Source: Prevotella sp. (GTDB lineage: Bacteria; Bacteroidota; Bacteroidia; Bacteroidales; Bacteroidaceae). Taken from it: a stretch of 64,000 nucleotides of DNA. How positions within the stretch are numbered: the stretch's first letter is position 1; each line of letters starts with the position of its first letter. Below, one piece after another: positions 25,293-48,346 of the stretch. Both the position numbers and the translations under genes were made by a program. The stretch is taken from positions 1 to 64,000 of the forward strand of contig JAFUTI010000008.1 of assembly GCA_017471465.1 (NCBI GenBank), written 5' to 3'. Under the pieces are notes generated by a model, which worked only from the letters and a program-made list of their open reading frames with translations, searched no databases and was not told the DNA's origin.

Positions 25293-25303
25293 CACCCGAT
25301 TTT

Positions 25304-25380
25304 CAAGGGGTGCCCACTGTCGTGGGCTGAGATGATACCCTCAAACCTGATTCGGATAATGCCGACGTAGGGATAGAAAG
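25304..25380 (+). ncRNA. TPP (THI-box) riboswitch
   Basis: The aptamer has the conserved THI elements in order: AGGGGTGCCC, GGGCTGAGATGATACCC, ACCTGAT, GGATAATGCC and CGTAGGGA. These define the thiamine pyrophosphate aptamer. It lies 52 bases upstream of the TonB receptor start. The usual effect is to shut off expression when TPP is plentiful; here a short distance to the ATG suggests control of translation or of a nearby terminator. Confidence 0.95.
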
Positions 25381-25431
25381 TATTATTGTTCCCCCTTTAT
25401 ATTAGTTTTTAATTAAAGGTAAAAAAACAGT

Positions 25432-45116: not shown

Positions 45117-46646
45117 TCACAGCGCGAACTTCAGCGTCCGGCCGTTGATGGTCAGGATATACACCTGGCCCTGCTGTAGGGCAATCTTCCGTGTGCCGTC
45201 GTTGATGACGGTGTTCACCACCTGCTGACCATCGCTGCCGTAGATGATGCAGCGGCTCTGCGGTTCGGTATTGCTGATGATAATGCCGTCGCTAACCACC
45301 TTGATGTCTGCCTGCGAACGGGTGGCGGCCCTTGCATCTGACGGTGCCCCCTCTTCGTAGACGATGATGATTGAGGTGTCGCCCGTGATGACTGGCGTCA
45401 CGAAAGTACCGTCTTCAGCAAGTCTTGATGTCACATAGCGGCCGTCCATGAAGATGTTGCTAATCTTCCATCCCTCTTCAGCCGTAAAGTTCAGCGTCTG
45501 CTCGGCGCCCTGCTTCACCTTGATCTTTGTGTATCCGCTACGGCTGTCATTCACCGTCAGCCAGGCGAACACCTCGGGCTCCGGCTCTTTCACGGACATA
45601 CCGTAAACTACCAAATCGTGTGCCGGCATCGTTGCGGGGTAAGTGTACCAGGTGACGGTATTCCCTTCGTTGTCCTTTGTTGGCGCTGTTATCTGGCTGC
45701 CGTAAGCTATGTTTTGTACAGACAGTTCTTTGTTGTCTACAATAAATGTCAGGCGGTACTTGGCCGTTTCGCCAGTCATAATTGGCGAAATTCCATTCCA
45801 ACTGAGTGTGGCAGTGGCAACGTCAGAGTTGTCATAGCCAGTTTTGGTGGCATAGACACTGACTGTATAGGTCGCTGTCAGGGGAACTGTCGCATCATAA
45901 TGTTTCTTAATGTCTGTATTCGTTATCTCCGACACATAATCAACTCCTTCTGTCTCACAATCAAACCTCAATTGCCCATCCTTACATGATATTGTCGGTG
46001 TAGCACACTTTGGCGTCTCGGGAATCTCTCCACCATCGATGGCAACAATATTCTTAAAGCTGCTCCAAGGAGCTGTAGTTTTGTACGCATTAACGGAGGC
46101 TGCAGGTACATGCAAGGTTGCGTATTCAATATATGAGCCATTAAATATACTGCTTTTCGCATTTGGAACATTCTCTGCCAAACAAGTAACGTCTGCGAGA
46201 TTTTGACAATTGCTAAAGGCTTCAGCATCAATTGTTTTTACATTACTTCCAATAGTCAATGATGTCAGGCCGCTGCAATCATAGAAAGCATAAGCGCCAA
46301 TTGATGTCACGCTGTTGGGGATATTGACGAAGGTCAGGCCGCTGCAGCCAGAGAAAGCATAACCACCAATTGTTGTCACGCTGTTGCCGATGGTGACGGA
46401 GGTCAGGCCGCTGCAACCACGGAAAGCATTACTACCAATTGATGTCACGCTGTACTCTACGTTATTATAGCTGACAGACTCGGGGATTGCAATGTTTCCT
46501 GTGTATGAATTAGGATCTTTAGTAACCTCGGCATAATTATCGTTCTTGGCTATTAGAGTGTAATAGATGCCGTCAATTTCCACGGCGTCAGCGTTTGCCA
46601 CCATAGGCAGTATAATAAATATGATAAGGAATAATTGCTTTTTCAT
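45117..46646 (-). CDS. BspA-like leucine-rich repeat surface protein
   Basis: This 509-residue protein has a signal peptide ([19 protein letters not shown]) and four BspA/TpLRR repeats near residues 70-150 (e.g. [20 protein letters not shown]). BspA-type repeats bind host proteins such as fibronectin and fibrinogen in oral Bacteroidales. A C-terminal region holds an Ig-like domain and a sorting-tail-like end ([13 protein letters not shown] ... [13 protein letters not shown]). The DNA of the repeats is itself repetitive (about 69-bp units near 46240-46460). The start at 46646 gives a normal signal peptide; nine codons upstream are unlikely. Confidence 0.88.
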
Positions 46647-46709
46647 AATTGCTCCTAATATTTTTGTTTCCACAATGTTTTTTTATATGAGTAACGTATC
46701 ATTTATAAC

Positions 46710-46910
46710 TCAATCAATTATAATATCGTTCCGATGCTGTAGTTCTTTTCGTACGATTTCACGCTCTTGGTCTGTCAGAGATGATGTTTCGAAACTTTCT
46801 GTGAAAATTCGAAAACAATCAGAATCAAGATGACCAGCAACCTTAACAATTTTCTCGCCAAGGTGAATTTCTATTAAATCCCCCTTTCTAACAAAATTGA
46901 CCTTATCCAT
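46710..46910 (-). CDS. Small hypothetical protein
   Basis: This 66-residue acidic protein (MDKVNFVRKGDLIEIHLGEK onward) has no signal peptide. Its first 30 residues form a compact beta-strand-rich stretch (FVRKGDLIEIHL, KIVKVAGHL), and the rest is helical. No family was recognised. The upstream region to 46975 has a strong hairpin that ends another transcript, so it would be a short separate unit. Codon use looks like that of the neighbours. Confidence 0.55.
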   Translation of the reverse strand: MDKVNFVRKGDLIEIHLGEKIVKVAGHLDSDCFRIFTESFETSSLTDQEREIVRKELQHRNDIIID

Positions 46911-46971
46911 AATCTATATTATTTATTATCAGTGTTCCCTTCCTGATAGATTAGAGTTATATGGCTAATAT

Positions 46972-47253
46972 ATAAAAAGAGCGTGGGAATCTACCTGTTA
47001 CTCGTCCCACGCATCGAGGCTCTGGCATCGCCTTGAATGTTGAACGAGCAACGCCGAAGCCCACGCCGATATGTATATATACGACAATGTCGGATACTAC
47101 ATACCCATAGGCGTCATTGTTGCGTTGTTCTTGACATTCAGTTTGGAACTGCCAGATTCCGATGCGTCAAGCACAAAGTGCAGATAACGCTTTTCCTATA
47201 TATAGGTCTCCACCCAAATGTCCCACGTCATGCGGGGCTTCGGTATGAAGACG
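46972..47253 (-). ncRNA. Candidate structured small RNA with own promoter and terminator
   Basis: The minus-strand region between a promoter (47257-47288) and a terminator hairpin (46981-47012) has no open frame of note but many stems. The 5' end (CCGAAGCCCCGC, complement 47232-47243) pairs with a later CCGAAGCCCACGC-type segment (complement 47054-47066), apart from one mismatch and enclosing about 165 bases. Inner hairpins include a CCTATATATAGG palindrome (47195-47206), GCAC...GTGC nested in GCGT...ACGC near 47165-47190, and CGACAATGTCG. The layout of a long closed rod resembles 6S RNA, but I could not verify this. The RNA family is unknown. Confidence 0.45.
46975..47012 (-). terminator. 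Terminator of the candidate small RNA
   Basis: TCCCACGC (47005-47012) and GCGTGGGA (46981-46988) form a perfect 8-bp stem with a 16-base loop. On the minus strand it is followed by TCTTTTTATA. Confidence 0.65.
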
Positions 47254-47292
47254 CAGCAAAGATAGCAAATAAATCTGAAAGTTCCAAGAAAA
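47250..47292 (-). promoter_or_regulatory. Promoter of the small RNA (first copy of a 43-bp duplicated promoter)
   Basis: CTTG (complement 47285-47288), 20 bases, TATCTTTG (complement 47257-47264). The 43 bases are identical to 48064-48106, which drives mntA-hepT. Confidence 0.65.
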
Positions 47293-47303
47293 TACACAAA
47301 AAA

Positions 47304-47336
47304 ATCTCCGAAGCCGCACTATAGGACTTCGGAGAT
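47304..47336 (-). terminator. Terminator of the mntA-hepT operon
   Basis: ATCTCCGAAG and CTTCGGAGAT form a perfect 10-bp stem with a 13-base loop. On the minus strand a T7 run follows. It lies 69 bases past the HepT stop. On the + strand a second hairpin (GTGATGC 47343-47349 with GCATCAC 47385-47391, then T7) stands in the same gap. Confidence 0.8.
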
Positions 47337-47404
47337 ATTTGGGTGATGCGAGCTGTGGACTTCTGAAACAATCTCAGCCCATAGGCATCACGGTTTTTTT
47401 AGGG

Positions 47405-47761
47405 TTATGTTACACTATTTAATTCCTCAATATATTGAGAAATCTGTTGCTTTAGCAACGGTAAGTCATTGGTGTAGGTTTCCCAAATTAACGTTGCATT
47501 TGTCGTGATATAGCCATGTACTAATACATTTCGCATATCTACGATATCACGCCAAGGCACCTCCAGATGGTTGTCGCGGAATTCTTTGGTCAGAAGATTG
47601 GCCGCTTCACCTAATATCATGATGTTATAGACGACGGCATGAAAACACATTATGTTTGCTTTCATGTCTTCGAACGACTTCCCATTGAGATAGTCATTAA
47701 TGTGCTCTATGCACTCGTCAATATGGCGAAGACGATCAATGTCTCTAATTGCTTCTCTCAT
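47405..47761 (-). CDS. hepT: HepT-like HEPN toxin
   Basis: This 118-residue all-helical protein has the HEPN RNase motif R-x4-H-x-Y (RNVLVHGY near residues 77-84). The HepT family is the toxin half of the MNT-HEPN systems, an RNase that the partner inactivates by attaching AMP to it. It overlaps the antitoxin gene by 17 bases and would be translated after it. The motif and the pairing are clear. Confidence 0.9.
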   Translation of the reverse strand: MREAIRDIDRLRHIDECIEHINDYLNGKSFEDMKANIMCFHAVVYNIMILGEAANLLTKEFRDNHLEVPWRDIVDMRNVLVHGYITTNATLIWETYTNDLPLLKQQISQYIEELNSVT

Positions 47762-48044: not shown

Positions 48045-48063
48045 ATTCCGTACTGTTTGAGAT

Positions 48064-48106
48064 GACGCAGCAAAGATAGCAAATAAATCTGAAAGTTCCA
48101 AGAAAA
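48064..48106 (-). promoter_or_regulatory. Promoter of mntA-hepT (second copy of the 43-bp duplication)
   Basis: Same 43 bases as 47250-47292, with CTTG and TATCTTTG 20 bases apart. The -7 box (complement 48071-48078) ends 26 bases before the MntA start. Confidence 0.65.
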
Positions 48107-48120
48107 AGGGGCAAAAAGTT

Positions 48121-48346
48121 TTGTTTCGCGCGTGCGTGATATATAGTTGTTACAAGCAAAAATGAACCCTCACCTCCCGCACCTCTCACACCTACGTCGG
48201 GTGTGGGAGGTGTGGGAGGTGAGGGTTGTATTTCTGTTTCACAATATATACGCGCGCGACCGTGACGGTTTCACCACACGCCTATATTTTTTCACGAGAG
48301 GCCGTGAGAGATTTACGAGAGGCCGTGACGTTTTTGTGAGCGGACG
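48121..48346. repeat. Repeat-rich intergenic region with a 28-bp hairpin
   Basis: No gene is seen. Left arm 48165-48192 and right arm 48200-48227 form a 28-bp inverted repeat with two mismatches and a 7-base loop; the arms are strongly purine/pyrimidine biased. Outside it, CGCGCGxG and ATATATA motifs recur on both sides (48126-48148 and 48243-48259), extending the palindrome imperfectly. Next, ACGAGAGGCCGTGA occurs twice (48294-48307, 48315-48328). Confidence 0.75.

Follow-up and report, generated by a model that had tools for sequence, protein, structure and literature searches.

Which kind of RNA, if any, lies in the region 46972..47264 of contig JAFUTI010000008.1 of Prevotella sp. (GCA_017471465.1), and to which gene, if any, does it belong? 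The region was analyzed within a stretch of 64,000 nucleotides (positions 1–64,000 of the contig), which is termed the window throughout. The initial annotation had proposed a free-standing regulatory RNA, either 6S-like or of a novel Bacteroidales class. According to our analysis the RNA is probably a 5′ leader rather than a free-standing transcript, namely that of the orf66-BspA operon, which extends from 46910 down to 45117. It probably belongs to a family of large RNA switches of the Bacteroidales that act in cis.

Layout of the locus

On the minus strand a promoter (47257–47287) is followed by a fold of about 280 nt and then by a terminator-like hairpin with a U-tract (46965–47010). Promoter, U-tract and gene order place the RNA on the minus strand. 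The TTG and the element TATCTTTG, separated by 20 nt, have the form of the Bacteroides promoter consensus, so that the RNA's own promoter assumed in the initial annotation was borne out on this strand; transcription is predicted to start at about 47250. The extent given there fits in its coordinates, but it lacked the strand and missed the extension of the leader, which continues past the U-tract through hairpin D to the orf66 start codon at 46910. All features are collected in Table 1.

Table 1. Features of the leader and the following operon in the window (minus strand; order of transcription).
Feature	Position	Strand	Properties
Promoter	47257..47287	-	TTG (47285–47287), 20 nt, TATCTTTG (47257–47264)
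5′ hairpin	47206..47252	-	predicted fold; family strand-swap z = -7.2
Closing helix P1, A-rich 5′ strand	47188..47204	-	possible partners: U-tract and the AU stretch behind it
Hairpin A region	47169..47192	-	family motif AAGCG..CGCTT, diverged in the window; swap z = -0.6
Helix B, 5′ strand	47159..47168	-	partner 47009–47016; two-sided changes in 6/6 pairs
Lateral hairpin H3	47145..47160	-	loop CTGGCA (47150–47155) pairs with the H4 loop
Helix C, 5′ strand	47133..47140	-	partner 47034–47041; covariation
Helix D, 5′ strand GCAAC	47119..47123	-	partner GTTGC inside 47043–47067; invariant or one-sided pairs only
Most conserved stretch	47043..47067	-	GGCGTGGGCTTCGGCGTTGCTCGTT; also complementary to hairpin T
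Lateral hairpin H4	47016..47034	-	loop TGCCAG (47022–47027); covariation
Terminator-like hairpin T	46983..47010	-	GTGGGA..TCCCAC; two-sided changes in 3/6 pairs
U-tract and AU stretch behind it	46965..46980	-	5 or more T within 9 nt in most relatives
Hairpin D before the gene	46927..46948	-	loop GGGAA (46935–46939) complementary to the T 3′ arm (46985–46991)
orf66, first gene after the leader	46710..46910	-	no Pfam match
BspA-type leucine-rich repeat protein, second gene	45117..46673	-	PF13306, E 8.5e-30

Two repeats were observed on the promoter side of the RNA. A 46-nt direct repeat (47247–47292 and 48061–48106, 98% identical) holds the promoter and flanks mntA-hepT, with its second copy before mntA, an arrangement that resembles an insertion of the gene pair along with a duplicate of the promoter. 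At 48165–48227 there is a GGTGTGGGAGGTG-rich 28-nt inverted repeat, 93% complementary with 7 nt between its arms.

The stretch 46965–47256 of the minus strand folds with -116.3 kcal/mol (z = -7.1), which none of 200 shuffles equalled; the plus strand is likewise structured (z = -5.1). The minimum-energy prediction favours a long hairpin without T. Hairpin T is also absent from the list of a simple terminator scan because its loop of 16 nt exceeds the 8 nt maximum of that scan. Helix B consists in the window of 8 uninterrupted Watson–Crick pairs spanning 160 nt. It is probably the pairing that had been described as 12 bp closing about 165 bases; the inverted-repeat listing of the window contains no 12-nt repeat for this helix. 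Short mechanical reading frames overlap the RNA stretch in the open-reading-frame list; the two-sided compensatory changes described below argue for an RNA nonetheless. A leader peptide was rejected, since the family alignment, inspected by eye, has neither a conserved start codon nor a conserved frame.

Fold and distribution of the family

A scan of the window with 4227 Rfam models gave nothing above cut-off at the RNA, the sole match above cut-off in the window being a TPP riboswitch at 25296–25391 of the plus strand (70.2 bits). In a permissive scan of 46880–47420 three matches appeared, all far below cut-off, and for 17 relatives no family was found at the RNA, with two tRNAs and one abiF RNA elsewhere. 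Thus 6S RNA, tmRNA and RNase P RNA, for which the initial annotation had suggested this check, as well as tRNA were rejected, none of them matching at the RNA. Near one RNA copy an abiF RNA (RF03085) is located (L104:5520–5557). The literature search yielded no recognised description of the RNA; a study with thousands of candidate RNAs (PMC8040213) might, judging from the available part of this source, list a fragment among its supplementary models.

For the comparison, 68 of 74 non-redundant sequences were aligned (A1, excluding L141, L111, L100, L094, L048 and L029; 49 of the 68 form set A4), and a hand-set structure of 43 pairs was tested on these 68. The share of paired cells was 95.2%, compared to 84.5% after shuffling and 33–41% after sliding. 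Two-sided changes were present in 20 of the 43 pairs (14.7 after shuffling), and the covariation score was 0.316 as opposed to 0.119 for shuffled and 0.048–0.062 for slid controls. Together with the folding z of -7.1, these compensatory changes, strongest in helices B and C, confirm the claim of a real structured RNA by the very check on homologous loci that had been proposed for it. In an APC ranking made without a preset structure, helices B and C account for all of the 11 best column pairs, ranks 12 and 13 belong to H4 and H3, and the remainder of the 110 pairs shown is mostly noise.

Strand-swap tests on the family sequences gave z values of -25.9 for helix B and -24.8 for helix C, followed by H4 (-6.8), H3 (-6.4) and T (-6.1), compared to -0.7, -2.1 and -0.9 for three negative controls. 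Helix P1 as a whole reached -9.5 and its part past the U-tract -5.4; the inner part, paired with only the U-tract, gave -0.8. As expected, no swap signal was obtained in invariant parts, namely hairpin A (-0.6), helix D (0.4) and, in this first set, the H3–H4 loops (-1.0). Hairpin A with this value has no covariation support, and for helix D the pairing fits while covariation is absent from the 68-sequence alignment. A pairing of loop A with loop T scored -4.7 in a tight cut and -0.2 in a wider one; the linker and loop T scored +2.4, which speaks against pairing. Swap tests and shuffles alike ignore relatedness.

A further set comprised 40 copies, nearly all from matches of the covariance model R1, built from the last 114 nt of the RNA; the 3′ part of these copies is therefore tied to the model, while their 5′ strands are independent of it. 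Fixed anchors or addition to the alignment recovered 4 of the 40, because the anchor itself covaries, and a looser parsing was used instead. With it, z was 15.5 for helix C and 9.3 for helix B (37 of 40 parsed). A Watson–Crick 6-mer partner for the H4 loop occurred upstream, as required for the H3–H4 loop–loop contact, in 38 of 40 copies, compared to 39 of 1320 cross-type combinations, and the H4 loop itself appeared as 19 different strings. The seeming invariance of both loops in the first set thus results from how that set was found. By comparison of sequences, with relatedness uncorrected, the fold can be regarded as well established.

At the 3′ end, a U-tract with 5 or more T within 9 nt is present in 63 of the 65 measurable sequences among the 68, and hairpin T is weak with a mean ΔG of -7.1 kcal/mol over all 68. 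Of the terminator with a T-run in the initial annotation, the U-tract and a covarying stem are seen; the structure is described here as terminator-like. The conserved core consists of the strands AATCTGGCAGTT / GCRATGCCAGAGC and GCGTGGGCTTCGGCGTTGCTCGTT. The latter fits the upstream GCAAC and complements T as well; this complementarity averages -28.1 kcal/mol compared to -15.8 for shuffled strands, and it hardly varies (swap z = -2.5).

Relatives are common in the family. Of 299 genomes from the genus, 124 gave a partial or whole BLASTN match with the RNA (E≤0.01); R1 matched 163 of the 248 family genomes (E≤1e-4; 120 of 248 at E≤1e-9, hand count) as well as 57 of 246 genomes of the order, the own genome being included in each case. 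Often several copies occur per genome, at least 15 in one; scoring was limited to 15 candidates in each genome. In the sample across the phylum, none of 197 other genomes matched at E≤1e-5, the own genome being the only one of 198. A 25-base pattern of the most conserved part was found in at least 117 stretches; of the 80 titles listed, 78 belong to Bacteroidales or close groups, one states 'Bacterium' only and one is from Bacillota. The proposal of a novel Bacteroidales RNA class is in accordance with these homologues in the family and with the lack of an Rfam match.

Eleven weak R1 matches, two of them identical, look by eye like true distant members. These (L207–L217, 38–45 bits) form a distant subgroup with different conserved strands, in which, again by eye, the loop–loop matches are kept and several retain a match between T and hairpin D. 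Two Phocaeicola plasmids match over 39% of the RNA. They are plasmids of P. dorei and P. vulgatus of 92–95 kb (L033, L034), in which the partial match precedes, by about 60 nt, a gene for a hypothetical protein of 177 aa. A phage search with the RNA gave no match; one viral contig of IMG/VR (L152) contains a copy, and the gene behind it encodes 433 aa that begin like an ATPase. One other copy was found in the own, incomplete genome, where it precedes an LRR gene. Intragenomic duplication as the source of the copies was rejected: copies within a genome are barely more alike than copies of different genomes (0.686 vs 0.673), and the excess is not clear.

Downstream genes and the contact across the U-tract

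The gene context was counted, without thinning for relatedness, in 101 loci in which a gene of 100 aa or more follows within 3 kb. Of these following genes 97 have the orientation of the RNA, and 50 of the 97 start 40–69 nt from a reference point close to where the U-tract ends; on the upstream side, 52 genes are on the plus and 48 on the minus strand. In further loci, likewise not thinned, the first reading frame is co-oriented in 38 of 40. The first ATG-started frame lies most often 70–79 nt past the T stem (42 of 94). A TAnnTTTG motif precedes the RNA in 83 of 94 loci, while promoter motifs in the gap before the gene, of the one type sought, were found in 2 of 98 loci compared to 5.9 by chance. 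With respect to this promoter type, the loci agree with a transcription attenuator leader, for which a co-oriented gene without an intervening promoter is expected. On this sequence evidence the downstream gene would be read from the promoter of the RNA.

The first genes themselves are diverse. In the set of 93 of the 101 loci used for Pfam (four genes on the other strand and four too far downstream excluded), the 25 listed of 49 families include BspA-type LRR (13), DUF2971 (8), AbiH (4), protein kinases (3), FRG (2) and single TerD, SrfB and CotH members; a second sample (n=38) contained LRR (6) and NusG-family genes (2). The 100 upstream genes are an ordinary-looking Pfam mix with Abi_2 as the commonest family (6). 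A signal or membrane N-terminus was indicated by a rough home-made test in 37 of 93 downstream and 16 of 100 upstream genes. In a hand comparison of 12 genomes, 6 of 83 RNA copies were located on the same strand 241–336 nt before a NusG-family domain. Copies before NusG/UpxY-family genes were seen in two genera (L218–L221, L195, L196).

A retron or another RNA with a partner protein was rejected, since the loci share no such protein: LRR, the most frequent cluster downstream, accounts for 33 of 118, and the rest is varied. A homologue of orf66 (45% identical) follows the RNA in L011 and L135, probably one genome, and occurs in one other of 100 genomes (L206), where the RNA was not seen in the stretch examined; orf66 is consequently not a defining partner. 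An anti-phage regulon was rejected as well. PADLOC families occur downstream (DUF2971-type 8–9 and AbiH 4 of 93) and also upstream (AbiD 6 of 100), so enrichment is not established.

At +40 to +50, in the gap behind the U-tract, many loci have GGGAGTC or a variant of it, often within hairpin D. The variants track the 3′ arm of T, with the combinations GACTCCC/GGGAGTC, GACTCTC/GAGAGTC, GATTCCC/GGGAATC, GGCTTTC/GAAAGCC and more. The longest complement of the T arm past the U-tract has a mean length of 6.60 nt with the own partner, 5.81 nt with swapped and 5.15 nt with shuffled ones (n=129), corresponding to z = 10.5 for own versus swapped. It reaches at least 6 nt in 100 loci, 68 of them at +40 to +49, and stays shorter in 29 of 129. 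In the window the match to loop D comprises only 5 bp, and the longest match reported by the script is elsewhere (6 nt at +28). For the stem of hairpin D the excess over the control is modest (72 of 108 vs 56.4, sd 3.1). As both partners are present only in a transcript that extends past the U-tract, these data point to a read-through leader under selection, and they constitute the strongest argument against a free-standing RNA.

Mode of action, alternatives and known systems

The RNA family very probably controls the many unrelated surface and accessory genes behind it. The best reading is a riboswitch- or attenuator-like cis switch for LRR/BspA, DUF2971, AbiH and kinase genes and some NusG/UpxY genes. 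Comparison provides the conserved promoter, the fold with helices B and C and the H3–H4 loop–loop contact, T with the U-tract, the T–D covariation and the leader position before a co-oriented gene; a termination step, an antiterminator and a signal are what we infer in addition. The 3′ arm of T would have three mutually exclusive partners, namely its own 5′ arm, the conserved GCGTGGG stretch and loop D. With T folded, termination at the U-tract would be favoured; with T opened and its 3′ arm held elsewhere, for example by loop D, read-through would lead to transcription of the gene. Loop D, located beside the start codon, may also tune translation. A signal, which might be a small molecule, a protein such as a NusG paralogue, or an RNA, could bind the conserved core and set the choice. 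Against termination as the general output stand the weakness of T (mean -7.1 kcal/mol) and the distant member L209, in which the U-tract is poor and the T–D match kept (by eye). Moreover, a loop made past the U-tract cannot prevent termination at the U-tract. Somewhat short of an even chance, and hence tentatively, we propose a sensory leader class specific to Bacteroidales, in which surface, lipoprotein, stress and anti-phage-type operons that vary horizontally would form a regulon governed by a shared signal, the T 3′ arm picking partners on both sides of the U-tract.

The strongest rival is a purely translational switch, in which T is no terminator and its 3′ arm pairs either with the 5′ arm or with loop D, thereby masking or freeing the start region. 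We consider it a serious possibility, though rather less probable than not. It would account for the supported pairing of the T arm with loop D and for the location of this loop about 10–30 nt before the ATG in several distant members (by eye), including L209 with its weak U-tract. The U-tract kept in 63 of 65 sequences of the main group and the pairing of P1 as a whole across it argue in the opposite direction. As this rival is a cis leader as well, its probability overlaps with that of the preferred explanation, and the probabilities do not sum to one.

Elements of processive antitermination such as put and EAR RNA are a further model, here as a put/EAR-like element or NusG-paralogue site for long accessory operons. 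It agrees with the RNA at the start of accessory operons and with the six copies before NusG-family genes, but 77 of the 83 copies in 12 genomes have no adjoining gene of this kind and the leader itself has a terminator-like end, making this explanation unlikely. A free-standing trans-acting sRNA, 6S-like or other, with the gene behind it by chance or under its own promoter, would fit the promoter, the terminator-like end and the conserved sequences. The co-orientation of 97 of 101 next genes, the rare promoter motifs in the gap (2 of 98), the covariation of T with the stretch past the U-tract and, for 6S, the missing match and a different architecture render this original proposal quite improbable. 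Finally, the fold could act as DNA at the end of a mobile gene cassette, for which the very varied cargo and the two Phocaeicola plasmids with a copy may be cited. The preceding promoter and the G–U among the kept pairs point to RNA, however, and copies within a genome are hardly closer to each other (0.686 vs 0.673), so that we regard this as very improbable indeed.

With the cis-acting leader as the preferred reading, an RNA of about 300 nt with loop–loop contacts is found outside Rfam across many members of an order dominant in the gut, often in multiple copies. If it is a shared switch, accessory surface and defence-like genes would make up its regulon, the signal of which can be sought, and it would provide a handle on when Bacteroidales express horizontally acquired operons.

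Among known systems, 6S RNA is a discrete transcript with a single long imperfect hairpin, a central bubble and pRNA. The long imperfect hairpin is shared, whereas the RNA described here has no Rfam match, several copies per genome, a leader position and loop–loop contacts. Riboswitch and attenuator leaders, of which the c-di-GMP riboswitches are an example with many copies per genome, are similar in having a large fold before the start codon, a terminator-like platform with putative competing pairings and many copies before unrelated genes; the present RNA differs by its length of about 280–340 nt, the pairing across the U-tract and the lack of an Rfam match. In the capsule leaders of Bacteroides, UpxY proteins stop premature termination in the 5′ leaders upstream of upxY, according to the accessible part of that report (PMC7819879). 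Six RNA copies precede NusG-family genes and UpxY acts on leaders, which is alike; 77 of 83 copies in 12 genomes, in contrast, do not precede such genes, and in the window orf66 and BspA instead of a NusG paralogue are located directly downstream. The FopS/GibS sRNAs, as far as the source is accessible, are likewise a multicopy Bacteroides RNA family with standard promoters (PMC11697453). FopS of B. thetaiotaomicron comprises short trans-acting sRNAs of about 65–70 nt, nine of them intergenic, four antisense and one 3′-derived (PMC11697453, same part), whereas the RNA of this study is a large leader.
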